DNA from: an uncultured Trueperaceae bacterium
Lineage (GTDB): Bacteria > Deinococcota > Deinococci > Deinococcales > Trueperaceae
NCBI GenBank assembly: GCA_913057165.1
Contig: CAJXNS010000010.1
Span: 1-38,039, forward strand
DNA length: 38,039 bases
Reading direction: 5' to 3'
In this document: in pieces, positions 4,512 to 31,296 of the stretch
How positions within the stretch are numbered: the stretch's first letter is position 1
Layout of the letters: every line of letters begins with the position of its first letter
Position numbers and translations under genes: made by a program
Notes under the pieces: generated by a model
What the model was told of the DNA's origin: nothing
Seen by the model: the letters and a program-made list of their open reading frames with translations, nothing else
Databases searched by the model: none

Positions 4512-6128
4512 CTAACCCAAGTACGCTCGCGCTTCTTGGATGTCACGCGCGGCGCGTTCGTCATCCCAACCAAGCTCCAAGCGCACAAGGTTGTGCACCG
4601 TTTCGAGCGCTTGTAACGCTGCGTCTCGGTCGAGAAAGGCCACGCGGGTTCGCCGGGCGAGCACATCGGTGGTGCTGCAGGCGTACTCGGAGCGCACCGC
4701 ATGAACGACCTCGGCAAGAAGGTTTGGAAGGTCCGGTGCGATGCGGTCGGACAGGTTTTCGTCACGCGCCAGGTCAGCAACATGCTTTGCTTGGTCGCCA
4801 TAGGCGGTGTTGAGGTGGTGGGCGGTATCGCTGTCAAAGCCGTAGGCTTCCTGGAGTCTGCCAGCATTGAACGCTTCATACTCGGCTCCACCGGTGAGCG
4901 CCAGGTGTTCGGTTTGACTGTCGCTGGCCGACAGGCCGGCTTGTTGGATGGCCTGGTCGACGGTATCGAGCGCCATCTTGCGGTAGGTGGTCCACTTGCC
5001 GCCCGCGATGGTGATGAGTCCTTGATCTGAAATGTGAATCACGTGGTCACGTGACAAACCGGCCGTATCGCTCGCGTTTGGATCGGAGACGAGGGGCCGA
5101 AGTCCAGACCAGGCGGACTTCACGTCCGATCGCTCTACTGGCAGCGAGAAGTACTGCCGGATATGCCGCAGGACGTACTCGATATCGTCCTCCGTCGGTT
5201 GCGGGTGTGGTTCGATGCGCGCTTCGTTATCGGTGGTGCCCACGAGCGTCTGGCCAAGCCAAGGGAGCAGGAACAGTACCCGGCCGTCTTCGGTTTCGGG
5301 AATGAGCAAGCCCGTATCGGGTGGTGAGAAGCGTTGATCGAGCACGATATGGATGCCGCTTGATGCGGTCAGCATCGGTTCAATGTCTGGGTCATCCATG
5401 CGCCGTATGGCATCCGCAAACGGTCCGGTGGCGTTGATGACCGCGCGGGCCTTGACGTGCGCCCGCTGGCCCGTCTCATGGTCAAGAATGGTGGCCCCTG
5501 CAACCTTGCCATTTTCGTGCATCAGGGCTTCCACCGATGCGTGGTTGAGGATGTCGGCGCCTTGATCTGCGGCTGTGGTCGCCAAGGCCACGTTCATGCG
5601 GGCGTCATCAAACTGGCCGTCGTAGTAAATGACGCCGGCGCGAAGCCCGTCAGGCTTGAGCATTGGGAAGCGATCAAGCGCGGTTTTGGCGTCGACGTAA
5701 CGGCTGGGAGCCAGGTTGCTGGATCCCGCCAACCATTCGTAAATCTTGAGGCCGGTCATGAAGTACGGCACCTGAATCCACTCGTAAAGCGGCGTCACGA
5801 GTGGCAGGGGTCGTGCAAGGTGCGGGGCGATCTTTAGGAGGACCGAGCGTTCCTTGAGGGCGTCGCGGACGAGGTTGAATTGGGTGCGGTCGAACTGCTT
5901 GATGGCCTTTTCTAGGTAGCGCACGCCGCCGTGGATGAGTTTTGTGCTCCGGCTGCTCGTGCCTGCCGCAAAGTCATCGCGTTCCACCATCGCGGTTTTC
6001 AGACCGCGGCTGGCTGCATCGAGGGCCACGCCGGCACCCGTGGCACCGCCACCAATGACCAGCAAATCGTAGGTGTTGCGACCCATCTCACTAATGTCAG
6101 GACGGGCGCGTTGAACGGCGTTACTCAT
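4512..6128 (-). CDS. glpD: Aerobic glycerol-3-phosphate dehydrogenase
   Basis: The enzyme oxidises glycerol 3-phosphate to dihydroxyacetone phosphate with FAD and passes electrons to quinone at the membrane. The 538-residue product has the N-terminal FAD-binding motif [21 protein letters not shown] (residues about 21-42), the family signature [20 protein letters not shown], the substrate-domain stretch [21 protein letters not shown], a second signature [15 protein letters not shown] and a C-terminal helical domain with [14 protein letters not shown]. The length matches the family. The ATG overlaps the glpK stop by four bases (ATGA) with GAGGTG upstream, so translation is coupled to glpK and both enzymes act in sequence on glycerol. 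Confidence 0.97.
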
Positions 6129-7630
6129 GCTTGCACCTCATCGGCAGCCCAGCCTGCGCTGCGTGTCACGGCCTTGTTCCATTGGGCCAGCCGGGCGGTA
6201 CGCTCGGTCTCATCCATGCCTGGCTCAAAGGTGACGTCTACCTGCCACTGTTGCTTCAGGGTTTCACGGTCAGGCCAGACACCCACGGCTAAGCCTGCAA
6301 GATAGGCCGCACCCAAGGCGGTCGTTTCGGTGATCTTCGGGCGGACGACCGGCACACCCAGTAGATCCGCTTGGAACTGCATGAGCAGGTTGTTGGTGCT
6401 GGCGCCCCCGTCGACACGAAGTTCTGTGAGGGGGCTGCCGGCATCAGCTTCCATGGCGCGGACCACATCGTGCACCTGAAAGGCGATGGACTCAAGGGTG
6501 GCGCGGGCCACGTGTGCAGCGGTACTACCGCGGGTCAGGCCGAACAATGCGCCACGCGCGTGTGGATCCCAATGTGGGGCGCCAAGCCCTGTGAAGGCAG
6601 GGACCATGACCACGCCTCCGGCGTCCGGTACTTGCTGCGCGAGTGCTTCGACGTCGCTGCTGGCCTTGAGGATGCCAAGGCCGTCGCGTAACCACTGAAC
6701 CGACGCACCCGCCATGAAAATGCTGCCTTCAAGGGCGTAATCAACCCCGTCTTGGTCCCAGGCAACGGTCGTAAGTAGGCGGTTGTTGGACGGCACCGGT
6801 TCTGCGCCGGTGTTGAGCACCAGGAAGCCTCCTGTGCCGTACGTGCTTTTGGCCATGCCAGGTTCGAAGCACACCTGTCCGAACGTGGCGGCTTGCTGGT
6901 CGCCGGCGATGCCTGCGATGGGGATGTCGGCACCGAATTTTGTGGCTGGCACGTGACCGACCACTTCTGAGCTTGCCGTGACGCGTGGCATGAGGGCCGC
7001 TGGAATGTTGAAGGCCTTCAGGAGTGGTTCGCTCCAGGTGCGTGAGCGGATGTCAAAGAGCATCGTCCGACTGGCGTTGCTCACGTCGGTGACATGCTGT
7101 TGGCCATCTGTGAGGCGTGCAATCAGCCAACTGTCGACGGTGCCGAAGGCCAGCTCTCCGCGCTCGGCGCGTTCACGGACGCCGGGGACGTTTTCTAGGA
7201 TCCACACAATCTTACTGGCCGAAAAGTAGGCGTCAGGGACAAGACCGGTGGTTTGGGTAATCAGGTCGCCTAGCCCGTCTGCGACCCAACGCTCCACAAT
7301 GCCGGCGGTCCGACGGTCTTGCCAGACGATGGCGTGATGCACGGGTTCAAGGGTCTTACGGTCCCAGAGAATGGTGGTTTCGCGTTGGTTGGTAATTCCG
7401 ACCGCCTTGACTTGGGAGGCGGCCACGTTCGCTTTGGCCAACGCTTCTGCGAGGACGCTGGATTGGCTACTCCAGATCTCTTGGGCGTCATGTTCCACCC
7501 AGCCCGGCTGTGGGTAGTGTTGACCGAACTCCTTTTGGGCGACCGCCACAGGGGCAGCGCTGGCATCAAACAAGATCGCTCGCGAGCTGGTCGTGCCTTG
7601 ATCCAGCGTCAGTACGTACGGTGCATCCAT
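6125..7630 (-). CDS. glpK: Glycerol kinase
   Basis: Glycerol kinase phosphorylates glycerol with ATP to glycerol 3-phosphate, the substrate of the next gene. The 501-residue product has the FGGY kinase N-terminal phosphate loop [28 protein letters not shown], the [13 protein letters not shown] motif and the C-terminal [22 protein letters not shown], all diagnostic of GlpK. The ATG at 7630 has a GAGGAGG ribosome site just upstream. It lies 17 bases after cysS and overlaps glpD by four bases. No glycerol facilitator gene is present in the window. Confidence 0.98.
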
Positions 7631-7647: not shown

Positions 7648-9099
7648 TCAGTCGGTGCCGGTTGTGGCGCCCAGTTGACGTCGAATACGCGGTCCTTCAG
7701 GGGTGTCCTCAATCACGAGGCCCAGCTCGGTAAGGCGATCGCGAATCGCATCGGCCGACGCAAAATCGCGTCTTGCACGGGCCGCCTCGCGTTGCGCAAG
7801 CACCATGTCTGCCAAGGCGTCAAAGCGTTCCTGGGACGCCTGATCTTGCGCGTCGTGACCCAAGGCTTCCACGCCCAGCACACCACCCAGTCGGCTACCG
7901 TAGAACGCTGCGAACGCAGCCGCCTGAGCGGGTGTCAGGCTCGCTCCCAGGCGGTGAAGGTCACGCGTGGCGTCAAACAGCGCCGCAATCGCTTGGGGGG
8001 TATTGAGGTCGTCGTTCATGGCGGCGTCAAACGCCGCCACGTGCGCCGCAGTGACCTCTGTGTCAGGCTCGGCGTCGTTCGCTTTCGCTTGGGCGTCGGC
8101 CCAACCGTCCAGCAGGCGCGTGAGGCCCTGTTTGGAGCTTTCGATGGCGGCTTCACCAAAGTCGGACACGCTGCGGTAGTGGCTCCTCAGCAGGTGGAAG
8201 CGAACCACAGCCGGGCCGTAACGCTCAAAAAGGTCGGTCAGCGTGACGAAGTGTCCCTTGCTTTTGGACATTTTTTCGCCGTCGAGGGTCATCATGTTCC
8301 AGTGCAACCAGGTGTTGGCGAACGGTTTACCGACGGCATGGGCTTGGGCCAGCTCGCATTCATGGTGGGGGAAGACGAGATCGAGACCGCCGCCGTGAAT
8401 ATCAAAGCGGTCCCCAAGGTATTTGGTGCTCATGACGGAGCATTCAAGATGCCAACCTGGAAACCCTTCACCCCACGGTGAACGCCAGCGCATGATGTGT
8501 TCCGGCTCGGCTCGTTTCCATAGCGCAAAGTCGCGTGGGTCATCCTTCTCACCGCGCACCTCGACCCGCGTGCCTTCAAGCAATTGGTCCGGGTCGCGTC
8601 CCGACAACGCGCCGTAGTCTTCAAACTCAGACACGTCGAAGTACACGCTGCCGCTGCGTTCGTACGCCATACCGGCATCGATGAGGGCTTGAACCCACTC
8701 GATCTGCTCCGGAATGTGGCCCGTTGCTCGCGGCACGATGCTGGGGCGCCTAACGTTGAGGCGCGCCATGGCATCAAAGTACGACCAGAAGTACTTTTCA
8801 GCGATTTCCATGGGCTCAAGGCGTTCCAAGGCTGCGCGTTTAGCGAGCTTGTCTTCGCCGTCTTCGGCGTCATCGGTGAGGTGCCCGACATCGGTGATGT
8901 TGCTGACCAGACGGACGGTGTACCCAAGGTGTTCAAGCCAGTTGCGAAGAACGTCAAAGACGATGGGACCGCGGGCGTGGCCGAGATGCGGTTCGCTATA
9001 GACGGTCGGGCCGCAAAAGTACAACCCGGCGTGACCTGGCGTCACCGGTTCAAACGGTTTGGTTTCGTGGGTTTGGGTGTCGTGAAGTTGAAGCGTCAT
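7648..9099 (-). CDS. cysS: Cysteinyl-tRNA synthetase
   Basis: Class I synthetase that charges tRNA-Cys. The 483-residue product has [18 protein letters not shown], containing the zinc cysteine and the HIGH-like motif HLGH, further zinc ligands in WHLECSVM and [10 protein letters not shown], and the KMSKS loop in [14 protein letters not shown]. The C-terminal anticodon-binding part (from about 330) is complete ([21 protein letters not shown]). The start ATG at 9099 is preceded by GAAAGGT. It appears to be the first gene of an operon with glpK and glpD, an unusual grouping; the cognate tRNA-Cys lies 13 kb away. Confidence 0.98.
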
Positions 9100-9186
9100 G
9101 GTGACCTTTCTGTTCGATGTGTGGGGCGGAGGGCGTGCAGTCGTGGCGCCCTAGCGACATCGATGGAAGGTCGGGTGCATAAGGCA

Positions 9187-9239
9187 AGGCTAGCACGATG
9201 GCGCCGATTCGGCGGCCGGCGGTGAGCGCGTGCTAGCTT
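9187..9239. promoter_or_regulatory. Divergent promoter region between cysS and the YigZ-family gene
   Basis: A 9-bp inverted repeat (GCTAGCACG 9189-9197, CGTGCTAGC 9229-9237) contains both candidate -10 boxes. On the plus strand TAGCTT (9234-9239) ends six bases before the GTG at 9246. On the minus strand TAGCCT (9192-9187) would give cysS a leader of about 80 bases. The symmetry may reflect two similar promoters or a shared operator. Confidence 0.45.
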
Positions 9240-9245
9240 GCGGGT

Positions 9246-9839
9246 GTGTGGCTCACGGTCGACCGAGAAGCGTCCGTTAGGGACAACATTCAGCGGTCTA
9301 TTTTTGTGGCGTATGTGCAGCCGCTTGCGGCCCCTCATGAGGTGAGTGACCTGCAGTCTGCCGTACGTGAGCGCCATCCGGATGCCAATCATGTTGCTGT
9401 GGCATGGCGCCATTCCGGTAAGGCAGGGTTTGATGACGACGGGGAACCCACAGGGACGGCAGGGCGACCGATGCTGACCGTCCTCGAGCGGCGCGACCTT
9501 GACCGGGTGGTGTGCGCTTGCGTGCGTTGGTTCGGTGGCGTGAAGCTTGGGGCGGGCGGTTTGATTCGGGCCTACGGTGGGACCACCGCGAAGGCGTTGG
9601 ATGCAGCGGGTGTGCGTGAGGTGCATGCCACTGCTTGGGTGGAGGTTGATGTGCCGTTTGCGATGGTTGATGCCGTGCTACGCAGGCTCAAGGCCCGTGA
9701 GCATACGGTGGTGGGTGATGTGTCGTACACCGCGCACGGCGCCACGGTCGGTATTGAAGTGCGTGAAACGGACGTTGACACCGCCGCTCGCGACGTGCAG
9801 GCTTGGTCGAACGGTCGTGCGGAATTGCGTCTCGCGTAA
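9246..9839 (+). CDS. YigZ/IMPACT family protein (UPF0029)
   Basis: The 197-residue product matches the YigZ/IMPACT family: IQRSIFVAYVQPL near the N-terminus, ANHVAVAWRH, the core DDGEPTGTAGRPML, then RRDLDRVVCACVRWFGGVKLGAGGLIRAYGG, the most conserved block. The family's C-terminal ferredoxin-like domain (about 130-195) is present. Eukaryotic IMPACT regulates translation through GCN1 binding; the bacterial protein's role is not settled. The start is GTG at 9246, supported by TAGCTT six bases upstream rather than by a ribosome site. It is followed after 27 bases by a lipoprotein gene on the same strand. Confidence 0.93.
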   Translation: MWLTVDREASVRDNIQRSIFVAYVQPLAAPHEVSDLQSAVRERHPDANHVAVAWRHSGKAGFDDDGEPTGTAGRPMLTVLERRDLDRVVCACVRWFGGVKLGAGGLIRAYGGTTAKALDAAGVREVHATAWVEVDVPFAMVDAVLRRLKAREHTVVGDVSYTAHGATVGIEVRETDVDTAARDVQAWSNGRAELRLA

Positions 9840-9866
9840 CGCTCGGCCTTGAAAGGTGGGTCACAG

Positions 9867-10445
9867 ATGCGTGCTTGGATGTTGTCGCTCTTGGTTTTGA
9901 GCTTTTTCAGCGGCTGTCTGCCTGCAAGCCTGAACGACGGGCAACCCGATGCAGCCGTCGTGTACGCCGCGGGGCATGCGCGTCCAGCGGGCGCTGCTGA
10001 CGCCCTGGACCAAACCTTGCGGTCGAGCGATCTTGATTTTGACTTTGTGCGGTCGCAAACCCTTCGCTTCTTAGAGGTTCGGCGGGGATCGCGCGCGAGC
10101 TTATGGGCGCAGTCGGCTGCGTCGGTGGGGCGTGCTGCATCTGCGGATGTCGTGATTGTGATTCGGCCGGTGGTGTTGGAGCGGACGCCTCGTGATCGGC
10201 GGCAACCTCCGACGTCATACTGGGTTGAGTTGCAACTTGAGGTGGCCGTCGTGGACGCTGAGGCGGGGCAGGTTCGTTCGTCCGTATTGGGTCCGCACCT
10301 GACAGGCGTCCTTTACGTTGACGATCCCGCTGCAGGGTTACCGGACGTCCGTGATGATGCGGTGGTTGCGGAGCTTGCCGAGCGGTCGATCGACGCGCTT
10401 GCGCCTTACGTCATTGAGGACCTCAAGGCGTGGCGTCGTTGGTGA
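9867..10445 (+). CDS. Predicted lipoprotein of unknown function
   Basis: The 192-residue product starts at ATG 9867, which has AAAGGTGG upstream; a TTG at 9849 would add six residues that do not fit a signal peptide. The N-terminus MRAWMLSLLVLSFFSGCLPA is a signal peptide with lipobox FSGC, so Cys16 would be lipidated. The mature part begins with a flexible stretch and continues as alternating strands and helices (ADVVIVIRPVVLERTP, SYWVELQLEVAVVDAEAGQVRSSVLG), reminiscent of small outer-membrane-associated alpha/beta domains such as those in LPS- or LptE-like lipoproteins, but no family is firmly recognised. Its 3' end overlaps the convergent membrane-protein gene by 23 bases. Confidence 0.72.
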   Translation: MRAWMLSLLVLSFFSGCLPASLNDGQPDAAVVYAAGHARPAGAADALDQTLRSSDLDFDFVRSQTLRFLEVRRGSRASLWAQSAASVGRAASADVVIVIRPVVLERTPRDRRQPPTSYWVELQLEVAVVDAEAGQVRSSVLGPHLTGVLYVDDPAAGLPDVRDDAVVAELAERSIDALAPYVIEDLKAWRRW

Positions 10446-12189
10446 AGTAGCGCTCAACCGCGTCGCGGTCTTGTGGCAAGACCGGCGGGTCGTTCGCGGG
10501 CGGGGTTGGCACGGTTGTTGGGCCTGAATCGGCTTGGGCATTGCCGTCACTTGTGCCCGGCACCACAGGGTCCGTGGTTGTCTGATCCACTGTGTTGTTC
10601 GGTGGTGGGCGGTTCTGCACGCTGGCTGGCAGGTCGTCCGTGGTGCGTGCGGGTGGTTGTGCCTCGTTTCCAGGTGGGCGTTCTGCTGGCTCGCGTACGC
10701 GGGTGGTTGCCCCATCTGCTTCCTTGGCCGGCGTCTGGTCGTTCGGTGGGTCTAAGTCCGGGTCCTGCTGGGCGACCGTGCCACGTCTGTTGGTTTCCGT
10801 GTTTTCAGCGTTACCGCCGGCGCTTGTTTGCGGCCCATCTGTCGCTTGCGTTGCTTCGCGACTAGCGTCTTCAGGCCCAACCGCGTCGGACGCCCGACGT
10901 GCGCCTTCGCCTGGTTGCGCTGAATCGTTTGATGCATCTGCCGTACCACTGGCGTCGGGTACGGGCCGTTCACCTTCGCCCGCTTGCACTTCACCGTTCA
11001 ACCCGTCCTGCGTGACGCCCTCACCGGTCGGTGGACGCCCACTGTCTTCTACTTGACCTTGACCGGTCGCATCCCCTGGCGTGGCGGCCGTATCGGGGGT
11101 TGGGCCCTCGCGGTCATCAGGTGGCGTCCCACCGTTTGAATCATCGGAGGCGACGGCCGTTTCAGAGGTCGAATCCCCGTCGCCTTGGACGTCTGGTGCC
11201 CCGCTCGGTTCTCCTGCGTCTGTCGTGGGCGATGCTGGCGTCCGTGCGTCCGTCTCTGTGGTTGCGGGGTCAGGATTTGGCGATTGGGTGGTGTCGGCCG
11301 GCTCGCGAGATGGTTCGGGCGACACCGCTGATTCGCGGTCCTCTTCCACAGCAGCGTCAGGCGGTGCGTCCGCTGAGAGGCCTGGCTGGCCCGTCTGTGG
11401 GTCGTCCGGGCGGTCGGTCGCGGCCGGTGGGGCGTCGGGGTCGCTGCTGGCTGAATCGTCTCCGAGCGGCCGTTCACCGGTCATCCTGTCGGGGTCGTTT
11501 GGCGCGTTGTCGGCCACTTGGTCGGCCGCTTGGTCGGCCGCTTGGTCGGCCTCGGTCATGGGGGCGTCGTCTTGCGAAATATCGTCGGTTCCGGGTGTGG
11601 ATGCTTCGCCGGATTCAGCGTCCAGGCGGTCTTCGGTCGATGGCGGTCCAGGTTGCCCTGAACCATCGTCTGGTGATGCTGTGGTTGACGTGGGAGCGTC
11701 CGGACCCGCATCGCCACTTCGTGGGCCATTTTCGATGGTGGGGCTAAACGGAAGTACCCATAATGCGGTGGCGGTCAGCCACGGTGCCAGCGTGGCGCCT
11801 GCGATCGCGGCAGGATGGGGGAGATAACGCTGGGGTCGTACCGGGTGCGTACGCGCAACCGCGACGAGCTTGTCGCGCATCGGTCCGTCCAGTGCGGCCT
11901 CATTGGCCGGCTGCAGCAACGTCTCGTCGAGTAGGCCATGGCGTTCAATCAGCCAGCGCCGCACGCGCGTTTCGCTGTGGCGCACCGGAATGACCGCAGC
12001 CAGCACGGTCACAACGGCCGTGACCACAGCACCGATCCAAGCTTCACCCCCAAGCAGACCTTGCCAGAGGGCACCGAGAAGCAAAAGGGTTGGTGCGAGC
12101 ACCATCCAGCGCAGGAGGGTGATCTTCACTCGGTCGTAGCGAAACAGGATCGGCCAAGTGGAGCGGACGTGTGCTGGCGGCCGGCGCAT
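10423..12189 (-). CDS. Membrane protein with very long disordered acidic C-terminal tail
   Basis: The 588-residue product has three predicted membrane segments (about 24-44, 49-69, 127-148), with an intervening basic loop (RHSETRVRRWLIERHGLL). Residues 150-575 are low complexity, rich in Asp, Pro, Thr, Ser, Gly, Ala and Glu, with no Cys, Trp, Phe or Tyr and only one Lys. The very end, RDAVERYFTNDATP, regains order and may be a short functional motif. The reading frame stays open over 1.3 kb of the tail and ends with a stop 23 bases into the convergent lipoprotein gene. It is the last gene of an apparent operon (9-base gap from the glycosidase gene). TAGCCT at 12201-12196, six bases before the ATG, could also be an internal promoter. 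Family not recognised; a linker or surface-repulsive role is only a guess. Confidence 0.8.
   Translation of the reverse strand: MRRPPAHVRSTWPILFRYDRVKITLLRWMVLAPTLLLLGALWQGLLGGEAWIGAVVTAVVTVLAAVIPVRHSETRVRRWLIERHGLLDETLLQPANEAALDGPMRDKLVAVARTHPVRPQRYLPHPAAIAGATLAPWLTATALWVLPFSPTIENGPRSGDAGPDAPTSTTASPDDGSGQPGPPSTEDRLDAESGEASTPGTDDISQDDAPMTEADQAADQAADQVADNAPNDPDRMTGERPLGDDSASSDPDAPPAATDRPDDPQTGQPGLSADAPPDAAVEEDRESAVSPEPSREPADTTQSPNPDPATTETDARTPASPTTDAGEPSGAPDVQGDGDSTSETAVASDDSNGGTPPDDREGPTPDTAATPGDATGQGQVEDSGRPPTGEGVTQDGLNGEVQAGEGERPVPDASGTADASNDSAQPGEGARRASDAVGPEDASREATQATDGPQTSAGGNAENTETNRRGTVAQQDPDLDPPNDQTPAKEADGATTRVREPAERPPGNEAQPPARTTDDLPASVQNRPPPNNTVDQTTTDPVVPGTSDGNAQADSGPTTVPTPPANDPPVLPQDRDAVERYFTNDATP
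11517..11551 (-). repeat. 12-bp tandem repeat, three copies, inside the acidic-tail gene
   Basis: CTTGGTCGGCCG is repeated almost exactly three times (11517-11528, 11529-11540, 11541-11551 plus one changed base). On the coding strand it encodes repeats of the four residues Ala-Asp-Gln-Ala (EADQAADQAADQVADN). In-frame copy changes would alter tail length without breaking the frame. Confidence 0.85.
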
Positions 12190-12198
12190 GGGTGCAGG

Positions 12199-13797
12199 CT
12201 AGCGCGCGGCATCCCCTAACGAAGGGTCGAGGACAACGAGGACGCTTTCAACATCCCGGCGCGACGACCGGTTCAGGGGGCGACCGCCTGCTACCAGGGT
12301 CGTAGAGCCACCACTGTCCAGGCGGATGGCGTCCTCCACACCCAGCTCAAGCAGGTAAGGAACCAGGTCGGCGGCGGTCATGCGTTCGGCCGCAATGAGC
12401 CGTACACGGCCATCGGCGTGCAATGCAATTGCGGCTTGCTGGGTCACGTCGGAGACGATGCGCGTACCATCTTGGAAGCGTTCAGATGCTGGTTCGTACG
12501 CGTCACGGCCGTCGCGAATCAGGCTAGGTCCCGCCTCGACCGCCCAGCGGGCCTTGTTGAGGGGGGCGTCCAGCACGATTTCGGTACGCAGGCGGTCGCC
12601 AGGCTGCAACCGCGCCAGGGATGCCATGAACGGGTTGTAGCGCACGGCCATGCCGCCTGCTGGGACGGTGTCGTAGCCGGTTTGGTTCGAAAGCACCACG
12701 CCGGACGCATCCACGCGGATGATGCCACCTGCCGCTGTCCCGAAGGTCACCCCTTCGGCCCAAGCCACGTCAAAACTTCGGGTTTGACCGATCCTCGCTT
12801 GTTCAAGCAGTTCAGTGCCCGACCACAATTCGATCAGGCCGGACGGGGTGGTGATCCCAAGGCCTGCCGCGTCGCTGTAAAGCACCGGCCGCCCGCGGGA
12901 GGGAAGCGCGCGCACCTCACCATCCACAATGCGTAGGCCAATCGGCGCCAACGTGGACGGGTCGTAGTAGCCGGTATTGATCGCCGCAACCGCGTTGGCT
13001 ACGGCACCATCGACCGGCAATGCCACACCTTCTGCGGCACGAAGGTCGGTCATCAGGCGCGCGCCCGGTGCGAGCAAGACCTCATGAACCCGGCTGTGCG
13101 CCGCTGCGGTTGATACGGCACGCTCAACCGCCGTGACGCCAGGCCAGATCGCGCGCTGCACGGTGTCCTGCGTCTGCTCAGGAATGCGTGCGTCACGCGG
13201 CAGTTCGCTCACATCGATTACCAAACGTCCGGGTTCCGTCAACGTAAATGCATGAATTTTGACGGCCTCCGCTGCGGTGTAGTGGACGCTCAAGCCACCC
13301 GCAAGCGGATCGCTCGCGATCGTCAACGCATCGGCACGCTCCCCGTTGGGTGAGAGGGGGGCGGCCACCCCAGGAAGCTGCCAGCGCCACGGGTCGCCAG
13401 GCACGACCGTTGCGATCGCGCGCGCCTGCTGAAAGTTGGGTGGCAGTCGCCCTGCAACTTCAAGCACGTAGCGTCTGCCGTTGGATCTCGTCGTGGTACG
13501 CAGACCGTTTGTGCGCGCAATATCCAGTCCGATGAGGGTGGCTCGCTCCACGGTCACACCGCCGGCTTCTGTCCGTTCAGGGGCAGGGCCGGCGAAGTTG
13601 AACCAGCCTCGGGCTGGATCAAAACCGATGCTTGGGTCGACGCCGTCAAAGACGATGACGTCATCGACGACCGTCAACCATGGGCTGCCCACGCCGTAGC
13701 GAACCGGCTCCCCGAATCCGAAGCCGGTACCGCCAAGCGCAAGCATCGCCAACGCGGCGCGGATGACGCGATGCGTGGTTGGGTTAGCGGTGGGCAT
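12199..13797 (-). CDS. Secreted phosphodiester glycosidase-like (NAGPA/DUF2233 domain) protein
   Basis: From ATG 13797 the product is 532 residues: a signal peptide (MPTANPTTHRVIRAALAMLALG), an N-terminal beta-rich region that ends in an AMIN-like stretch (HAFTLTEPGRLVIDVSELP), and a C-terminal NAGPA domain with VNAVAAINTGYYDP-like core (AVANAVAAINTGYYDPSTLAPIG split at about 255), ALHADGRVRLIAAE, and the diagnostic AIRLDSGGSTTLVAGG followed by LNRSSRRDVESVLVV. The family cleaves phosphodiester-linked sugars; bacterial members often act on envelope glycans. The start at 13797 overlaps the upstream gene by 14 bases; the frame is open 120 bases further upstream, but that extension lacks a signal peptide and lies inside the upstream gene. 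Substrate unknown. Confidence 0.85.
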   Translation of the reverse strand: MPTANPTTHRVIRAALAMLALGGTGFGFGEPVRYGVGSPWLTVVDDVIVFDGVDPSIGFDPARGWFNFAGPAPERTEAGGVTVERATLIGLDIARTNGLRTTTRSNGRRYVLEVAGRLPPNFQQARAIATVVPGDPWRWQLPGVAAPLSPNGERADALTIASDPLAGGLSVHYTAAEAVKIHAFTLTEPGRLVIDVSELPRDARIPEQTQDTVQRAIWPGVTAVERAVSTAAAHSRVHEVLLAPGARLMTDLRAAEGVALPVDGAVANAVAAINTGYYDPSTLAPIGLRIVDGEVRALPSRGRPVLYSDAAGLGITTPSGLIELWSGTELLEQARIGQTRSFDVAWAEGVTFGTAAGGIIRVDASGVVLSNQTGYDTVPAGGMAVRYNPFMASLARLQPGDRLRTEIVLDAPLNKARWAVEAGPSLIRDGRDAYEPASERFQDGTRIVSDVTQQAAIALHADGRVRLIAAERMTAADLVPYLLELGVEDAIRLDSGGSTTLVAGGRPLNRSSRRDVESVLVVLDPSLGDAAR

Positions 13798-14563
13798 GCA
13801 GGGCCTGCAGTAACGGTTTGGCGTCAACGTCCAGTTCAAGGATTCGGCCCAGGGCCCAAGCGGTTTGATGCGCGGCCAGGTCGTGCCACGGCACAACCGC
13901 CCCGCCGAGGGTGTCAAGTCGCTGTCGTACGGTGGTGGGCAAGTCCGGCATCAACTCGACCAGCGTGAGGTGCGGGCCGAGAACCAGATCGTTGACGGCC
14001 GCGAGTGGCTTGCTGAGTAGCACGGCATCGGCCGCTGAAAGCACACGATCGATCGCCGGATTGCGTTCATGCAGTGCCCGTAACGTCACGCCGTTTCGCC
14101 GGTCCGGAAGAGCCTGTTCGGCTTCAGCAGCGGACGCCTCAACCACCGTAAGTTCACGCACACCCGAGGAAGCAAGACGCCCGAGGAGTGCCGTGGCGTC
14201 AGCGTTGGCACCGATCGCCACCACCGAAGCGCCACGTGGGTCCCAGCCGGCGGCGTGAAGGCCGTCAACGACAGCCTCTGGGCCGGTTAGCTCGCCAACC
14301 GTCAGTCCCCGTGTTTGCACCAGCGTGTCGACCGACTGGTACCGCGATGCGTCAACCGATGCGCGTTGCGCGTGCGTGAACGCTTCTGCGCGCGCCCCGT
14401 TGCCGGACACAATCACACCCGCCACACCCAAAGGAGTGAGTGCCGCGAACGTTTCAGCAGCACCCGCGGTGCTTCGTTTCATGCTGAAACGGCCGTCAGG
14501 GTCGACGTACCCGTCCAAAGCCATTCCAAGCGGCGTGTCGGCGAGAAGCGTCACCCATTGCAT
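13784..14563 (-). CDS. Shikimate dehydrogenase-fold protein lacking the catalytic residues
   Basis: From ATG 14563 the product is 259 residues and aligns by eye with AroE: N-terminal LLADTPLGMALDG, the stretch SVDTLVQTRGLTVGELTG where AroE has GAVNTLV...GYNTDG, a dinucleotide-binding fold (GASVVAIGANADATALLGRLA, residues 111-131), and an AroE-like C-terminus (VVPWHDLAAHQTAWALGRILELDVDAKPLLQAL). The AroE catalytic lysine (VPHK motif) and aspartate (NTDG) are both absent: the latter position is Gly94. TATCGT seven bases before the ATG supports this start; the open frame extends 411 bases further upstream through the thrS region and is not coding. First gene of the operon 14563-10423. Dehydrogenase activity is unlikely; a ligand-binding or scaffold role is inferred. 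Confidence 0.75.
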   Translation of the reverse strand: MQWVTLLADTPLGMALDGYVDPDGRFSMKRSTAGAAETFAALTPLGVAGVIVSGNGARAEAFTHAQRASVDASRYQSVDTLVQTRGLTVGELTGPEAVVDGLHAAGWDPRGASVVAIGANADATALLGRLASSGVRELTVVEASAAEAEQALPDRRNGVTLRALHERNPAIDRVLSAADAVLLSKPLAAVNDLVLGPHLTLVELMPDLPTTVRQRLDTLGGAVVPWHDLAAHQTAWALGRILELDVDAKPLLQALHAHR

Positions 14564-14570
14564 GGTGAAA

Positions 14571-14576
14571 ACGATA
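14571..14576 (-). promoter_or_regulatory. Leaderless-type -10 box for the AroE-fold gene
   Basis: Minus-strand TATCGT ends seven bases before the ATG at 14563. The divergent thrS has a possible -10, TAGCCT, at 14594-14599 giving it a leader of about 50 bases. Confidence 0.5.
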
Positions 14577-14656
14577 CCGCGCCGGCTGCGTGATAGCCTT
14601 ACGGCCGTTTCGCCGCGATGGACGTTGTCGCGCAGAATCTCGCTTGAGGTGGCAGC

Positions 14657-16645
14657 ATGCAGGTAACCCTTCCCGACGGCAAGACCCTTGAACTGCCCGA
14701 CGGCGCGACTGGCGCCGATGTCGCCAAGGCCATCGGCCCGGGGCTTGCCAAGGCCGCTTTGGGCACGCGCATCAACGGCGAACTGGCAGATGGCATGACC
14801 CCCGTTCCTGACGGTGCACACATCGAGATTGTCACCAGCAAAGATGACGCTTGGATGCAGCTGGCACGGCACACGCTGGCGCACGTCATGGCGCAAGCGG
14901 TGCGCGAAATGATGGTGGACGAAGGCTTCGACGCGAACGCCGTCAAGCTGGCGATCGGTCCGGTCATCGAGCACGGTTTCTATTACGACATGGACCTACC
15001 TCGGGCGCTTGGGCCAGACGACCTGCCGGCCCTTGAGAAGCGCATGCGCAAGATCGTGAAAGCCAACTTGCCGCTCAGGCGCTTCGCGTTGAGCCGCAGC
15101 GAAGCGCTGGCGCACTACGAAACGTTGGGTGACCCGTACAAGGTGGAGTTGATTGAAGACCTTCCAGAAGGTGAGACGATCACCTTCTACGAACAGGGAG
15201 GAGACGACGGCTTCACCGACTTGTGCCGCGGTCCGCACCTGCCCGCCACCGGCAAAATCCCGAAACACTTCAAGCTCATGAGTGTGGCGGGAGCCTACTG
15301 GCGCGGCGATGAACGCCGTCCGATGCTGCAGCGCGTTTACGGGGTTGCGTTTGCCACCGAGGAGGAACTCAAAGACCACCTCTGGCGCATCGAGGAGGCC
15401 AAGCGTCGCGACCACCGTCGGATCGGCCAAGACCTGGAAATCTTCACGATCGACGATGACATCGGACCGGGACTGCCGCTGTGGCTGCCGCGGGGTGCGG
15501 TGATGGTAGACGAAATTGAGACGCTCGCGAAGGAGATGGAGGCGGATGCCGGTTACCAGCGTGTGCGGTCGCCCCACTTAAGCAAAGAGTCGCTGTTCCT
15601 CAAGAGTGGGCACCTGCCGTACTACGAAGAGGACATGTTCCCAGCGATGGAACTGGATCACGTTCGCTACTTCGTCAAGCCCATGAACTGCCCGTTCCAC
15701 CACAAAATTTATGACGCCCGTCCGCGGTCGTACCGGGAGTTGCCGCTCCGTTTGGCAGAGTACGGCACCTGCTACCGGTATGAGGACTCAGGTGCACTGA
15801 TGGGCCTCATGCGTGTGCGCAGCATGCAAATGAACGATGCCCACATTTACTGCACCGAAGAGCAGTTTGCCGATGAGTTCGTCGGTGTGATCCGGTTGTA
15901 CCTGAAGTACTTTGAGCTTTTTGGCATCGAGTCTTACGAGATGCGCCTGTCGAAGCACGCCAAGGAGGGCTTGGGTAAGAAATACGTTGACGAGCCTGAG
16001 CTCTGGCTGAAAACCGAGGCGATGGTTCGCGACGTGCTCATTGAGCATGACATCCCGTTTGTGGAAGCGGAGGATGAGGCGGCGTTCTACGGACCGAAGA
16101 TCGACGTGCAGATTAAGAGCGCCATCGGTCGGGAGTTCACGCTTGCGACCAACCAGGTGGATTTCGCCCAACCGCGTCGTTTTGACTTAACGTACGTTGC
16201 GGAGGATGGGCAGAAGCACACGCCGTTGTGCCTTCACCGCGCACCGCTTTCCACACACGAACGCTTGGTGGGTTTCCTGCTTGAGCATTTTGCGGGCGAC
16301 CTGCCCCTCTGGCTGGCACCGGAGCAGGTGAGGATCGTACCGATTGCTGACCGGCATGTGGCGTACGCCGAGCGTGTTCAGCAAGACCTTCAGGCGGCTG
16401 GGTTGCGGGCGGAAGTGGACGCACGTAGCGAACGCATGAACGCCAAGATTCGTGACGCCGAGCTGCTTAAGGTGCCGTACACCGTGGTCGTGGGCGATCA
16501 GGAGTCTGATGCTGAGGTCGTGTCATTCCGCAGTCGCCAAGAGGCCGACTCTAGCGACGTACCCTTGGCCACATTTGTGGCGCACCTTCAGGCCGCACGT
16601 GACGCGCGGGCCTTGAAGGTCACGCCACTCTCACAAGGGTCGTAG
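14657..16645 (+). CDS. thrS: Threonyl-tRNA synthetase
   Basis: Class II synthetase for tRNA-Thr. The 662-residue product begins with a TGS domain (residues 1-60, MQVTLPDGKTLELPDGATG), followed by the editing domain with HTLAHVMAQAV and the zinc-like C...H arrangement LCRGPHLPAT, then the catalytic core: PHLSKESLFLKSGHLPYYEEDMF, the zinc ligand region VKPMNCPFHHKIY, motif 2 RLAEYGTCYRYEDSG and motif 3-like LCLHRAPLSTHERLVG. The C-terminal anticodon-binding domain (about 545-645) is complete. ATG 14657 has GAGGTGG at 14646-14652. In motif 2's neighbour the common RGFTQDDAH is RSMQMNDAH, a conservative variant. Length is normal. Confidence 0.98.
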   Translation: MQVTLPDGKTLELPDGATGADVAKAIGPGLAKAALGTRINGELADGMTPVPDGAHIEIVTSKDDAWMQLARHTLAHVMAQAVREMMVDEGFDANAVKLAIGPVIEHGFYYDMDLPRALGPDDLPALEKRMRKIVKANLPLRRFALSRSEALAHYETLGDPYKVELIEDLPEGETITFYEQGGDDGFTDLCRGPHLPATGKIPKHFKLMSVAGAYWRGDERRPMLQRVYGVAFATEEELKDHLWRIEEAKRRDHRRIGQDLEIFTIDDDIGPGLPLWLPRGAVMVDEIETLAKEMEADAGYQRVRSPHLSKESLFLKSGHLPYYEEDMFPAMELDHVRYFVKPMNCPFHHKIYDARPRSYRELPLRLAEYGTCYRYEDSGALMGLMRVRSMQMNDAHIYCTEEQFADEFVGVIRLYLKYFELFGIESYEMRLSKHAKEGLGKKYVDEPELWLKTEAMVRDVLIEHDIPFVEAEDEAAFYGPKIDVQIKSAIGREFTLATNQVDFAQPRRFDLTYVAEDGQKHTPLCLHRAPLSTHERLVGFLLEHFAGDLPLWLAPEQVRIVPIADRHVAYAERVQQDLQAAGLRAEVDARSERMNAKIRDAELLKVPYTVVVGDQESDAEVVSFRSRQEADSSDVPLATFVAHLQAARDARALKVTPLSQGS

Positions 16646-16651
16646 GGCCGC

Positions 16652-17206
16652 TTAGCCCGCTAGGGGCTCTTGGCTGATGCTGACGCGTACGATCGTGTCG
16701 GGCTCAGCGCCAGACGGCCGCGTTGGATCGATGCGCGTGAGGCGATCTAAGACGTCAAGACCATCGGTGACCCGACCAAACACGGCATGCCGTCCATCAA
16801 GCCACGGTGTGGCATCGAAGGTAATGAAAAACTGGCTTCCGTTGGTGTTCGGCCCGGCGTTCGCCATACTCAACACACCCGGCTGATCATGCTTTAAGTC
16901 CGGGTGGAACTCATCGGCAAACTGGTAGCCAGGTCCGCCGGTGCCGGTTCCCGTCGGGTCGCCCGTTTGCGCCATGAAGCCGTCAAGCACGCGGTGAAAC
17001 ACGATGCCATCGAAGTAACGGTGCAGTGCGAGGAACACAAAGTTGTTCACCGTGGTTGGCGCACGCTCAGCTTCTAGCGCGATCTCGAGTGTGCCTTGGG
17101 TGGTTTCGATGGTGGCGTGGTACGCCACGCCGTTTTCTAAGACCGGCTCAGCGCTAGGGAAGCTCGTCGTTCGGGTCGGTTGCGGTTCGATCGTTTGGCG
17201 TGGCAT
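16652..17206 (-). CDS. Cyclophilin-type peptidyl-prolyl isomerase (cytoplasmic)
   Basis: Cyclophilins speed cis-trans isomerisation of prolyl bonds. From ATG 17206 the product is 184 residues: a short N-terminal extension and a complete cyclophilin domain with [20 protein letters not shown], the motif [22 protein letters not shown] and [14 protein letters not shown]. The catalytic Arg (FHRV), Gln (SQFF) and Trp (PWLDG) are present. There is no signal peptide. The start has GGAGG 12 bases upstream and overlaps the end of the preceding cyclophilin gene by 53 bases in another frame. Open frame continues to 17440, but inside the neighbour's coding sequence. It converges on thrS with a 6-base gap. 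Confidence 0.9.
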
Positions 17207-27156: not shown

Positions 27157-30100
27157 GTGCAACTAAACCGCGTCACCGTCTCCGGCTTCAAAAGTTTTGG
27201 CGACCGCGTGACCGTCGAGTTTTCGCCTGGTGTGACGGCCATTGTCGGTCCGAACGGAAGCGGGAAAAGCAACCTGCTTGACGCCTTGCGTTGGGCGACG
27301 GGTGGTGGGCGTGCCCGTGAGTTTCGGGCGGAAGACAAGACCGAACTGATTTTCCACGGTGCCAGTGGCAAGAAACGCCTGAGCCGCGCCGATGTTGAAG
27401 TCGAGATGCAGCTGCCCGATCGGCGCATCAAAATCACCCGCAGTTTGGACCGCGATGGCGTCACCAAGCTCACCCTCAACGGCCGGAACGCCCGCTTTGT
27501 GGATGTCGATGAAGCGCTAGCCGGGAGCGGTCTTGGGCGGGGGAGTTTGGCGATCATCGGTCAAGGTGAGGTCAGTGGTGTCCTCATGGCCGACCCACCG
27601 AGGCTTCTCTCGTACGTCGCGGAAGCCGCCGGTGTGGCCCAACTCTCGAACCGTCGCGAGCAAACCGTCCGGCGGCTCGATACCGCGCGTGAACACTTGG
27701 CGCGACTCGAAGAAAAACTTGCCGAGGACCAAGCCCGGCTTGACGCCCTCGCAAGTGAGGCGGAAGACGCCCGCCGACACCGCGAACTCACCGCTCGTAA
27801 CCAGCAGTTACGCTTCACCCTGATTGACGCGCGGGTCGCCAGCCTCGAACGGGACGTCAAAACACTCAAAGCGTCCGTCACGGAAGGTGAATCAAAGCTT
27901 GCCGCTGCGCGCGAAGCCGCTGACGAAGCCCGCGAACACGTCAAAGAAGCCCGTGAACGCGACCAGAAAGCAGAAGCGGCCCACCGCGAAGCGACCGCGC
28001 TGCACGCCAAAGCCCTCGGTGACGTTCGCGTCGCCGAGCACGCGCTGGAGGCCGCCACCACCCGAGCGGGTGACCTAGAACGCCAGCGGGAGCGCTTGCA
28101 AGAAGAACGCGCCGAGCTTGAACAGCGCCAACCTCCAGAGGCACCCACCGACGACCTCGCCGCCTTAGCAGACGCCATGCGGGTCGCAGACGAGGCGCTC
28201 GATGCTGCCCGCGCCGCCCTGCAGGAAGCCCAGCAGGAAGCCAATGGAGCGTGGGAGGCCCGCCAAGCCGCCGAACAACAAGCAGCCGCCAGCGCCCGAG
28301 CAGTCGCCCAACAACAGGAACGCATCGAAGCGCATGCACGGCGGCGTCGTGAACTCGAGGCACGCCTTGAAACGCTAAAACAAGAACGCGTCAAACTCGA
28401 GGGCAACGACCCGACACAGGACGAAGGCAACGCCGCGGCAACCGTCACCGCGGCCGAAGAGCGGCTTGAGGCCGCCCGAACGCGCCTCGAGGAGGCCCAC
28501 CAAGCGCACGCCACGGCCGATGCAGACGTGCGCTCCCAACGGACGCACGTCGAACGACTCAAAGCAGCGCTTGAAAACCGTCAAGGCTACGCCGAAGGAC
28601 CCAAACAGGCGTTGGCAAGCGGCATCAGCGGCATCCTTGGGTCGCTCGCTGACCTCCTGACGGTCCCTGACGCGTACGTTGAAGCGGTCGGCCTTGCACT
28701 CGGCCGGCGGGCTGAGTACATCGTGACGCAAGACGAAACCACCGCTCGCAAGACCCTTAAGCACGTGCGCGACGCGGGTGGATGGGTGACGCTCCTACCG
28801 ATCGACCTAGCGAAAGCGGCGCCCGCCCGCGACCGAGCCGAAGCCCTGCTTGGTGAAGACGGCGTCGTCGGGCGTGCCATCGACCTCATTGACTTTGAGG
28901 ATCGCTACGACCCTGTGGTCCGCAACGTCCTGGCTGACACGCTCATTGTTGAAACCACCGAACAGGCTTACGCGCTGGCCAAGAAGCACACCACCCGACC
29001 ACGCATGGTCACCCAAGACGGGTCGGTGTTTGACGTCGGGGGCGCCCTTTCGGGTGGGCGGCGCCGGGCGGTCAATGCCCTCCTGGGAGCCGCCAAAGAT
29101 CTGGAAGACAACGAAGCACGCCTTGTGGAGCTTGAAACCGCTGTCGAGGTAAGCCAAACCGAGCTGACCGACGCACAAGGTGCGTTCCTGGCCGCACGCA
29201 GCGAACGTGATACCGCTCGCGAACGGTACGAATCGTTGCGTACCCGTGCCACGGAGTGGCGTGAAGCGGCCGCCATCAACGCCCGCATGATGAGCGACGT
29301 TGAGGCGGAACTCAGCGGCCTTGAAAGCGGTCCAGAGCCTGCCGTTCCGGACGTCCAGGCGAACGAGACACCTGACGTGAGCGCCGCACGGGAGCGGCAT
29401 GAAGCCGCCACGAAGGCGCTTGAGGCGCAACGGGTCACAGAAGCCCAAGCGCGCGAGGCCGCCGGCTCGGCACGCCACGCCCACGCCATCGCCACCGAAC
29501 GACGCCACGCCTACGAGCAAGCCCAAGCCCGGTTTGACGGTGACCTCAAACGTTTGGCCCAGATCAACAGCGAACTCGGCCAGTGGGCGGACACCATCGA
29601 GCACGCATGGAACGCCGTCAAGGACTTAGATGAGCGTGTGGCGCGCACCAAAGCCGCTCTGCCGGACGACCTGGCCGCGACCGGCGAAGCCCGCGAGGCC
29701 GCACGGCAAGCACTCACCGAAGCGGAATCGGCCGTGGACGCAGGAAACGAACGCGTGACGCAGCTAAGCACCGAACTTGAGCAGCACCGCGTCAACCTGG
29801 CGCGCCGCGAAACATCGCTTGATGCGGCTCGCGAAGAACGCACACAGTTTCCTGATGGCATGGTGGCGCTCGATATCGATGAGCGTGCTGCCCGGCAAGA
29901 GCTGCGATCGGGTGAGGCGGAACTGGAACGCATCGGAGACGTCAACCACCGCGCCTTAGATGAACTTAAGGGCCTGAAAGACGAGCACGAAACGCGTTTG
30001 GCCGATACCACGGACGCCCGGAAGGCCGTGGATGAACTCGACCGGACGCTGGGCCGCCTTGACCGCGAAACCACGCAAAAGCTGCGTGAAGCGGTGGAGG

Positions 30101-30606
30101 GGGTCCGCGAGCGGTTCTTGGCCCACATCGGGGAGTTGTTCGGTGCCGATGGGGAAGGGGACATCACCGCTGAGTTTGAAGAGGGCCGACCGACGGGACT
30201 CAAGATTCGCCTGCAGCCTCCCGGTAAGCAAACCCAAGCGCTTGGCCTGCTGTCGGTGGGGGAGAGAACCATGGGGGCACTGGCGTTCCTGTTCGCCCTC
30301 ATGGGCGAAGAGCAAGGCCGCCAAGGGCTACCGGTCGCGGTGTTGGATGAGGTGGACGCGCCTCTGGATGAAGCGAACATCCGCCGCTACCGTCACTTCC
30401 TCGAACGGTTGGCTGAGTCGGGCACGCAGTTCGTCCTCATCACCCACCAAAAAGCCACCTTCGAGGTTGCGGACGTGATTTGGGGCGTCACCACCGAGCG
30501 TGGTGTGAGCCGCTTGTTCTCGATTCAAAAAGAAGCCGACGAGCCACGGGTCCCTGAGGACGGTGTGCGGCAGGAAGGCTTAAACCTGTCGGGCGTTGAG
30601 GCCTAA
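27157..30606 (+). CDS. smc: Chromosome segregation ATPase SMC
   Basis: The 1149-residue product has the SMC layout: N-terminal head with Walker A GPNGSGKSN (31-39) and FRAEDKTELIFHGA, long coiled coil (about 165-480), hinge (about 485-640, GILGSLADLLTVPDAYVEAVGLALGRR cut here as two stretches), returning coiled coil (about 665-980), and C-terminal head with the signature LLSVGERTMG (1031-1040), Walker B VAVLDEVDAP (Asp1064, Glu1065) and the switch His1097 (ITHQKA). SMC loads and compacts chromosomes with ScpA/ScpB. The signature reads LSVGE where LSGGE is usual. The GTG start follows the M20 stop directly, so translation is coupled. Length is normal for bacterial SMC. Confidence 0.97.
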   Translation: MQLNRVTVSGFKSFGDRVTVEFSPGVTAIVGPNGSGKSNLLDALRWATGGGRAREFRAEDKTELIFHGASGKKRLSRADVEVEMQLPDRRIKITRSLDRDGVTKLTLNGRNARFVDVDEALAGSGLGRGSLAIIGQGEVSGVLMADPPRLLSYVAEAAGVAQLSNRREQTVRRLDTAREHLARLEEKLAEDQARLDALASEAEDARRHRELTARNQQLRFTLIDARVASLERDVKTLKASVTEGESKLAAAREAADEAREHVKEARERDQKAEAAHREATALHAKALGDVRVAEHALEAATTRAGDLERQRERLQEERAELEQRQPPEAPTDDLAALADAMRVADEALDAARAALQEAQQEANGAWEARQAAEQQAAASARAVAQQQERIEAHARRRRELEARLETLKQERVKLEGNDPTQDEGNAAATVTAAEERLEAARTRLEEAHQAHATADADVRSQRTHVERLKAALENRQGYAEGPKQALASGISGILGSLADLLTVPDAYVEAVGLALGRRAEYIVTQDETTARKTLKHVRDAGGWVTLLPIDLAKAAPARDRAEALLGEDGVVGRAIDLIDFEDRYDPVVRNVLADTLIVETTEQAYALAKKHTTRPRMVTQDGSVFDVGGALSGGRRRAVNALLGAAKDLEDNEARLVELETAVEVSQTELTDAQGAFLAARSERDTARERYESLRTRATEWREAAAINARMMSDVEAELSGLESGPEPAVPDVQANETPDVSAARERHEAATKALEAQRVTEAQAREAAGSARHAHAIATERRHAYEQAQARFDGDLKRLAQINSELGQWADTIEHAWNAVKDLDERVARTKAALPDDLAATGEAREAARQALTEAESAVDAGNERVTQLSTELEQHRVNLARRETSLDAAREERTQFPDGMVALDIDERAARQELRSGEAELERIGDVNHRALDELKGLKDEHETRLADTTDARKAVDELDRTLGRLDRETTQKLREAVEGVRERFLAHIGELFGADGEGDITAEFEEGRPTGLKIRLQPPGKQTQALGLLSVGERTMGALAFLFALMGEEQGRQGLPVAVLDEVDAPLDEANIRRYRHFLERLAESGTQFVLITHQKATFEVADVIWGVTTERGVSRLFSIQKEADEPRVPEDGVRQEGLNLSGVEA

Positions 30607-30609
30607 AGC

Positions 30610-31296
30610 GTGACAAAGCAGAACGCCTGGCAGGTGATGCACCATCCGTCGCTAGCCAGCACCCAAGCGCACGCCCGCAGCATGATTGACACCTCAACCG
30701 GGCCCCTTCATCGCGTCTCGGTGACCACGGATCAGCAGACCGCTGGCGTGGGCCGCCGCGGTTCAACCTTTGAGAGCCCTCCAGGGGGTGCGTACCAAAC
30801 CTTGGTGCTGCATGAGCCGTCCTTGGATTGGGTGGTTTCACCGTCACTTGCGGTTGGCCTGGCGTTTGAACTTGCATTCCGACTCAGGCAGGAAGGGTTC
30901 GACAGCCAAATCAAATGGCCTAACGACGTGTACTTAGGCGACCTTAAGGCCGGTGGCATTTTGATGGAACGCCATGCGGGCCACCTGCTGATCGGCGTGG
31001 GTTTGAACGCCCTCAACGCGCCACCCGCAGGAGCCGCACAACTTGGCCGTTCACCAGAAATCGTGCGCGCGTGGGTACGTGAGTCGTGGGACGCCTTAGA
31101 CAGGGCCGGCGGCAACTGGCTGGCGCGTAGGGAAGAGGTCCCTCACGTCCTAGCTGGCCGACGTGTGCGGGTGGGTGGGTCTATCGGTCAGGTGCTTGGC
31201 ATCGCGTCGGACGGTCGCCTGGTGCTCAATGTAGACGGCGAACCGACGCATGTGACCGCCGGTCATGTCGAGCTGCTGCCGCCGTCTGGGTCGTAA
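30610..31296 (+). CDS. birA: Biotin-protein ligase (BirA family, without DNA-binding domain)
   Basis: The 228-residue product attaches biotin to carboxyl carrier proteins such as acetyl-CoA carboxylase. The catalytic loop TTDQQTAGVGRRGSTFESPPGGAY stands where E. coli has GRGRRGR, followed by QIKWPNDVYLGDLKAGGILMER and HLLIGVGLNAL, all diagnostic. A C-terminal SH3-like domain (about 175-225) is present. There is no N-terminal helix-turn-helix, so this is a monofunctional (class I) ligase. The start is GTG at 30610, three bases after the smc stop. The 3' end overlaps the convergent recombinase gene by 34 bases. Confidence 0.93.
   Translation: MTKQNAWQVMHHPSLASTQAHARSMIDTSTGPLHRVSVTTDQQTAGVGRRGSTFESPPGGAYQTLVLHEPSLDWVVSPSLAVGLAFELAFRLRQEGFDSQIKWPNDVYLGDLKAGGILMERHAGHLLIGVGLNALNAPPAGAAQLGRSPEIVRAWVRESWDALDRAGGNWLARREEVPHVLAGRRVRVGGSIGQVLGIASDGRLVLNVDGEPTHVTAGHVELLPPSGS

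Follow-up and report, generated by a model that had tools for sequence, protein, structure and literature searches.

A reduced form of a five-gene order conserved in Trueperaceae, with an AroE-fold protein that lacks the AroE catalytic residues

The window analysed in this study is a stretch of 38,039 nucleotides from an uncultured Trueperaceae bacterium (GenBank assembly GCA_913057165.1, contig CAJXNS010000010.1). Three neighbouring genes, here called A, B and C, encode a protein of the shikimate dehydrogenase (AroE) fold, a protein with a NAGPA (phosphodiester glycosidase) domain and a membrane protein with a long acidic tail, respectively. An earlier note, made from the letters of the sequence alone, had described them as an operon of three same-strand genes that overlap or lie close together. 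Its coordinates were right: the overlap of A with B is 14 bases, the gap between B and C is 9 bases and all three reading frames are intact (Table 1). By comparing the locus with those of related genomes we found that A, B and C are the reduced form of a five-gene order conserved in the family Trueperaceae. The conserved neighbourhood that the note had named as support was thereby confirmed, but the full unit comprises five genes and not three.

Table 1. Genes A, B and C and the features that flank them in the window
Feature	Position	Strand	Description
gene A	13784-14563	(-)	259 aa; AroE-fold protein lacking catalytic Lys and Asp; belongs to a paralogue group found across Deinococcota
gene B	12199-13797	(-)	532 aa; NAGPA (phosphodiester glycosidase) protein with hydrophobic N-terminus
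gene C	10423-12189	(-)	588 aa; diverged member of operon family c7
divergent intergenic region A/thrS	14564-14656	.	93 bases; presumed promoter region
thrS	14657-16645	(+)	conserved divergent flank, outside the operon
lipoprotein-like open reading frame, 198 aa	9849-10445	(+)	conserved convergent flank, outside the operon; 23-base overlap with the end of C

The window copy of gene A gave no match in Pfam at E-values up to 1. Against the shikimate dehydrogenase family of NCBIfam an E-value of 8.7e-10 was obtained, but the score of 38.2 bits was below the curated cut-off of 235. In the best structural alignment (VIA-align) the AlphaFold model of A, which had a mean predicted local distance difference test score (pLDDT) of 92, was superimposed on Vibrio AroE (3o8q) over 250 residues with a Z score of 26.3 and a root-mean-square deviation of 2.6. 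According to the model, A has the AroE fold along its whole chain.

Catalysis by AroE depends on a Lys and an Asp. To follow these two positions we aligned 36 A proteins (33 from the window's family and three from group f5, see below) with 13 paralogues from groups f2, f3 and f4 and with true AroE rows; the catalytic columns were defined on the AroE of the window's own genome. Lys and Asp were both present in 26 of the 30 true AroE rows, and the other four, which were from the wrong strand, were dropped, so that the resulting 26/26 holds by construction. Among the A group none of the 49 copies had the catalytic Lys and Asp, and the window copy has Arg and Gly in their place. The proposal in the earlier note that A is a probable pseudoenzyme of the AroE fold agrees with this result. 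That A could be the genome's sole AroE gone bad was ruled out, as the genome has a separate true AroE on another contig (G000:C25:6314-7117, 230 bits, above cut-off).

Gene B matched the NAGPA family PF09992 with an E-value of 4.1e-18 and 66.6 bits, above the cut-off of 25, and has a hydrophobic N-terminus. For the AMIN-like region that had also been attributed to B, the match to PF11741 stayed below the cut-off (12.3 vs 20.5 bits). A profile of the B proteins matched Slr0280 from Synechocystis (5h3k) with an E-value of 2.9e-35 over columns 90-508 of 516. The NAGPA core was kept: N274, Y277, G423, P424, D494, G496 and S498 were each found in 32/32 rows and G276 in 30/32, corresponding to the core motifs Asn-x-Gly-Tyr, Gly-Pro and Leu-Asp-x-Gly-x-Ser. 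The position just before the Ala-Ile motif was Gln in 30 of the 32 rows, including the window, and Arg in the remaining two (L098, L105). A passage of PMC12419801 describes NAGPA as cleaving phosphoric diesters, by which phosphodiester-linked sugars are released; passages of PMC11488536 and PMC12024695 hold nothing on catalysis by bacterial NAGPA proteins. Gene B may hydrolyse a sugar-1-phosphate diester.

No family was found for gene C in Pfam or NCBIfam. Its tail of about 437 residues contains 92 Asp or Glu vs 24 Lys or Arg, and 87% of it consists of P, D, A, T, G, S, E, Q or N. The hydropathy plot gave two clear membrane segments (residues ~21-47 and 51-69). The earlier description as a three-pass membrane protein with a disordered tail was thus right about the membrane and the acidic tail, but the third pass (~127-150) stayed below the cut-off in the window copy; it was present in 4 of 6 relatives examined, and C is likely a three-pass protein. 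When the first 150 residues of C were used as a single-sequence query, no relative was found in 60 genomes. A profile of the family c7, built from 29 proteins with the window excluded, found C among 4015 frames at an E-value of 7.4e-4, the next match outside the family being at 0.094; the possibility that C is unique to the window's genome was rejected on this ground. The tails of c7 proteins, measured in the 23 relatives with a complete end, are 279-369 residues long, and Asp plus Glu exceed Lys plus Arg in 23/23. They end in the motif (V/I/L)PxxYQEIIRxYFR, which the end of the window protein, LPQDRDAVERYFTNDATP, matches in part; the end motif of C is degenerate (LPQDRDAVERYF vs LPxxYQEIIRxYFR). 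From the profile match, the syntenic position, the membrane segments, the acidic tail and this degenerate end motif we concluded that C is a diverged c7.

The sample for the comparison of gene neighbourhoods, which the earlier note had named as its check, comprised 61 genomes, namely the window's own and 60 relatives; 37 of these belong to Trueperaceae. Loci were mapped in 34 genomes of the family (the window and 33 others; G012, G023 and G029 were left out). The order A-B-c3-c10-c7 on one strand was complete in 24 of the 34, with c7 cut by the contig end in a few. Within the complete loci an exact 4-base overlap was seen at the c3-c10 junction in 19/24 and at the c10-c7 junction in 18/24. A followed by B on the same strand was found in 30/34 mapped genomes, with a spacing of at most 296 bases except in G013. 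Because the A-B pairing recurs in 30/34 mapped genomes it is more than chance, and the check came out in favour of linkage, with C as the diverged c7 of the same order. In G025 a contig ends with gene A, and B-c3-c10-c7 lie on a second contig; in G026 only 395 bases of contig remain beyond A. The five genes probably form one operon.

The c3 proteins have a predicted N-terminal hydrophobic segment followed by a beta domain, an alpha/beta domain, a long hydrophobic helical stretch and a second beta domain. The model of the c3 protein from L097 (mean pLDDT 92) contained a beta domain, an alpha/beta domain, a long helix (264-308) and a beta domain. No sequence match to c3 was found in PDB, and the fold matches were middling, all with Z below 8: residues 28-123 resembled beta-sandwich domains and residues 125-242 receiver-like and other alpha/beta domains. 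The missing clear fold match is no evidence for a new fold. The c10 protein, of about 205 residues, is polytopic by hydropathy. In group f5, relatives of c3 and c7 occur in 4/4 genomes, and in two listed loci an open reading frame of 180-186 residues lies between them. Seen in this way the triad c3-c10-c7 looks like a module of its own, in which case the order in the family would join three modules, that is A, B and the triad. A tie of the operon to MoxR-DUF58 clusters, suggested by a likeness of c3, was dropped for lack of support: among the listed DUF58 matches of genomes G001-G022 none lay on the operon contig or, in single-contig genomes, within 600 kb, while MoxR was not searched. DUF58 itself is present in 108/111 genomes.

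Our preferred reading starts from the finding that A, B and C are the reduced version of the conserved five-gene order; in the operon B would act as an envelope glycosidase, c3, c10 and c7 as a membrane complex and A as a cytoplasmic partner. We give it a probability of roughly 0.4. An envelope-glycan role of the operon is plausible given the nature of B, the predicted features of c3, c10 and c7 and the femAB gene next to A in one family. In such a mechanism B would act outside the cytoplasmic membrane on an envelope glycopolymer or a nucleotide sugar, in which it would hydrolyse a sugar-1-phosphate diester bond. The complex of c3, c10 and c7 would hold or regulate this step, and the acidic tail of c7 may extend into the periplasm. 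A, expressed together with the module, would stay in the cytoplasm as a non-catalytic protein that binds a ligand or a partner, or as a sensor. What would remain in the window's genome is a minimal A-B-C version that evolves faster.

Several observations weigh against this reading. The genes A and B are 853 bases apart in G013, where c3 and c10 lie on a different contig from A and B. In G005 A and B are on different contigs, and the 3.9 kb that follow A do not contain B; G007 has A-c3-c10-c7 and lacks B; and G029 yielded neither B nor c3, nor an A by family-level match. Some lineages do without c3 and c10, so both genes are dispensable there. In Pfam the tested representatives of c3, c10 and c7 reached no cut-off, and NCBIfam gave no family for them. 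At the position where B mostly has Gln, an Arg is found in Slr0280 and in the uncovering enzyme, and since Gln replaces Arg in 30/32 rows the activity of B is putative. A and B are also not obligate partners, because A adjoins uvrD, trpC or femAB elsewhere and in f5 is placed on other contigs than B and c3.

This last point was followed beyond the family. Paralogues of A were counted in the groups f1 to f5, where f1 is the window's family and f2 another family of the same order, by merging two similarity searches, one with the A profile (f1, f2, f5) and one with a single f4 paralogue (f3, f4). The paralogue was found in 37/39 genomes of f1, 4/4 of f2, 13/14 of f3, 50/50 of f4 and 4/4 of f5, in total about 108 of 111 genomes (~97%). 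In five f4 genomes uvrD lies upstream of it on the same strand, adjacent in two and with one small open reading frame between in three. In four f3 genomes (L142, L147, L148, L151) trpC begins 4-7 bases downstream of the paralogue (4/4), and uvrD is located farther upstream, on the same strand in three and on the opposite strand in one. A FemAB gene is found upstream in 4/4 f2 loci (three identified by Pfam, one by BLAST), and a neighbourhood of A and NAGPA was seen only in the window's family. As the neighbours differ between families (uvrD, trpC, femAB, NAGPA), the link between A and B is specific to the family, and the view of A as an accessory pseudoenzyme of this system gave way to that of a phylum-wide paralogue.

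Two side observations concern the same paralogues. The trpC gene (indole-3-glycerol phosphate synthase) belongs to aromatic amino acid synthesis, though its neighbour in f3 is without the AroE catalytic residues. In genomes of the set g25 an AroE-like paralogue lies ~0.5-1.4 kb from an oppositely oriented open reading frame whose N-terminal part has a short match to DUF58 (~50-100 of 216 positions); instances were seen in G056 (L140:8426-9178 and 9562-10281), G071, G073, G076, G077, G080, G081, G083 and G084.

According to the main rival explanation, A shares the locus but is otherwise independent. The arrangement would then be frozen at the level of the family, with A as an independent Deinococcota protein placed first in a unit whose functional core is c3-c10-c7, and with B as a second passenger. 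The occurrence of A in nearly all genomes with differing neighbours in the families examined points in this direction. So do the relatives of c3 and c7 in f5, located on other contigs than A and B, and the homologues of B, which the initial search matched in 56/61 genomes (A in 44/61), including families where A is not adjacent. On the other hand the A-B adjacency has been kept in 30/34 mapped genomes despite identities to the window copies of 25-41% for A and about 21-36% for B, and A-B-c7 stay together in the genomes where c3 and c10 are missing. We regard this explanation as possible, yet we hold it with considerable doubt.

The second rival sees in A a live enzyme, or a protein that binds nucleotides, whose chemistry would be new and in which Arg67, Asp79 and a Pro-His pair would form a new site acting, for example, on an envelope sugar or a sugar nucleotide. 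Arg67 was found in 45/49 copies of the A group and Asp79 in 48/49, where 26/26 true AroE rows have Asn; Pro197 was present in 49/49, and in each of the 49 a His comes next or after a single aromatic residue. The best match of A in Foldseek was a 5-ketofructose reductase (E-value 7.7e-18), which was also the best PDB match of the A profile (7cok, 7col; 3.4e-15), and the A copy of L098 scored 24.5 bits against NAD_binding_7 in Pfam, above the cut-off of 22.1. The ratio of nonsynonymous to synonymous substitution rates (dN/dS) fits a functional protein as well. For five close pairs with dS of 0.16-0.38, of which three come from one set of three genomes, dN/dS was 0.02-0.10 for A, 0.11-0.22 for B and 0.11-0.29 for c3; for three pairs each, it was 0.17-0.28 for c10 and 0.21-0.25 for c7. 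All five operon genes were thus well below 1 in close pairs and A was the lowest; wider pairs gave higher values, up to 0.21 (A), 0.42 (B) and 0.53 (c10). From the low dN/dS between close relatives we concluded that selection maintains A and that it is no AroE in decay. Against a live enzyme stand the absence of the catalytic Lys and Asp in 49/49 copies, the second Gly of the cofactor loop, kept in just 21 of the 36 rows from the family and f5 and missing in 8 of 9 from f3 and f4, and a reaction that is hypothetical. We consider a live enzyme unlikely.

The last rival concerns the lineage of the window itself. The c3 gene was found in 35/39 genomes of the family, the exceptions being G000 (the window's genome), G003, G004 and G029, and among the five members of the genus c10 was not found in G000, G003 and G004. 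These three genomes share the order A-B-c7 with an identical 9-base gap between B and c7, the contigs of G003 and G004 ending within c7. Because c3 and c10 are present in two congeners and in most of the family, a loss of both in the window's lineage is the simplest reading. The thrS tree placed the window outside G002, G003 and G004 (support 93/92); a grouping of G000, G003 and G004 as one clade was not rejected for thrS in the approximately unbiased test (p-AU 0.118), and the B tree does not settle whether there were one or two losses.

In the same lineage the operon genes changed fast and two control genes did not, as follows from identities and branch lengths. Relative to G002 the window copies of A and B had identities of 38% and 32%, compared with 53% and 49% for G003, when thrS was at 80% and 79%, respectively. 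The second control, dnaE, showed 67% identity to G020 for the window and G003 alike. The window branches were the longest in the trees of A (1.79) and B (2.3-2.7), and the thrS branch (0.22) was not. The contrast fades with distance: relative to G018 the identities were 35% for A (G003 37%) and 37% for B (G003 43%). A decay of the locus after the loss of c3 and c10, leaving little function in A, B and C, would agree with these long branches and lowered identities and with the degenerate end motif of C, but we find it quite improbable, as A, B and C have intact, closely packed frames and the pair G003/G004, with the same reduced order, has dN/dS values of 0.23 (A), 0.32 (B) and 0.30 (c7, 177 codons) that indicate selection still acting there.

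Taken over the phylum, the proposal that we put forward tentatively is that Deinococcota possess a second AroE-fold protein that has lost the catalytic dyad and gained a near-invariant site of its own (Arg67, Asp79, Pro-His), which would make it a neofunctionalised protein with a core task still to be described. In Trueperaceae this protein may have become the cytoplasmic part of a new five-gene envelope machine, in which a NAGPA phosphodiester glycosidase and three membrane proteins of no known family are its partners. An AroE look-alike that is found throughout a phylum, lacks the catalytic residues and is under purifying selection in close pairs offers an entry to an undescribed process. 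The operon supplies A with testable partners, namely the NAGPA protein and three membrane proteins whose tested representatives had no family match. One genus with genomes that have only three of the five genes constitutes a natural experiment, and Truepera radiovictrix is a cultured relative within the family. In the open-licence literature of PubMed Central, covered at the level of titles and abstracts and without subscription papers, no description of the operon or of the AroE-like paralogue was found.

The flanks of the operon recur in relatives. The divergent thrS gene is located upstream where the locus extends that far (28/41 loci), and in many loci a lipoprotein-like open reading frame, yigZ (PF01205 in the window) and cysS are found downstream. 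The lipoprotein-like frame of the window had no match in Pfam or NCBIfam, and its cluster is present in 15/41 loci. Just downstream of cysS, at 4512-7630, two genes with a 4-base overlap encode an FGGY kinase and a glycerol-3-phosphate oxidase-like protein (DAO, DAO_C); in several mapped relatives a gene of cluster c12 comes after cysS. A tyrosine recombinase of the phage integrase family (31263-32591) lies close to an SMC gene (27157-30606). A search for sigma-70-like promoters between 9700 and 14900 found 0, with 0.6 expected, and is little informative for this bacterial group. No Rfam element was found within 9000-17000. PADLOC gave no match for A, B or C, and a defence system is hence unsupported.

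Compared with known systems, A resembles AroE (TIGR00507, PRK00258) over its whole fold and differs from it in that the A group is without the catalytic Lys and Asp (0/49) and scores far below the curated cut-offs. The 5-ketofructose reductase (7cok, 7col), a sugar reductase of the AroE fold, is closest to A by PDB and Foldseek; A differs in being without the AroE dyad. The mammalian uncovering enzyme NAGPA (6pkg, 6pki, 6pku, 6pky) has its core in common with B (E-values of 7.6e-7 to 1.6e-6), and the DUF2233 protein 3ohg matched the B profile at an E-value of just 0.53; both differ from B in their short aligned stretches, their architecture and their host. Slr0280, a periplasmic protein tuning photomixotrophic growth according to a title cited in PMC12341915, has Arg before Ala-Ile where B has Gln and LDGG where B has LDSG, and it shares with B both the N-terminal region and the NAGPA domain.

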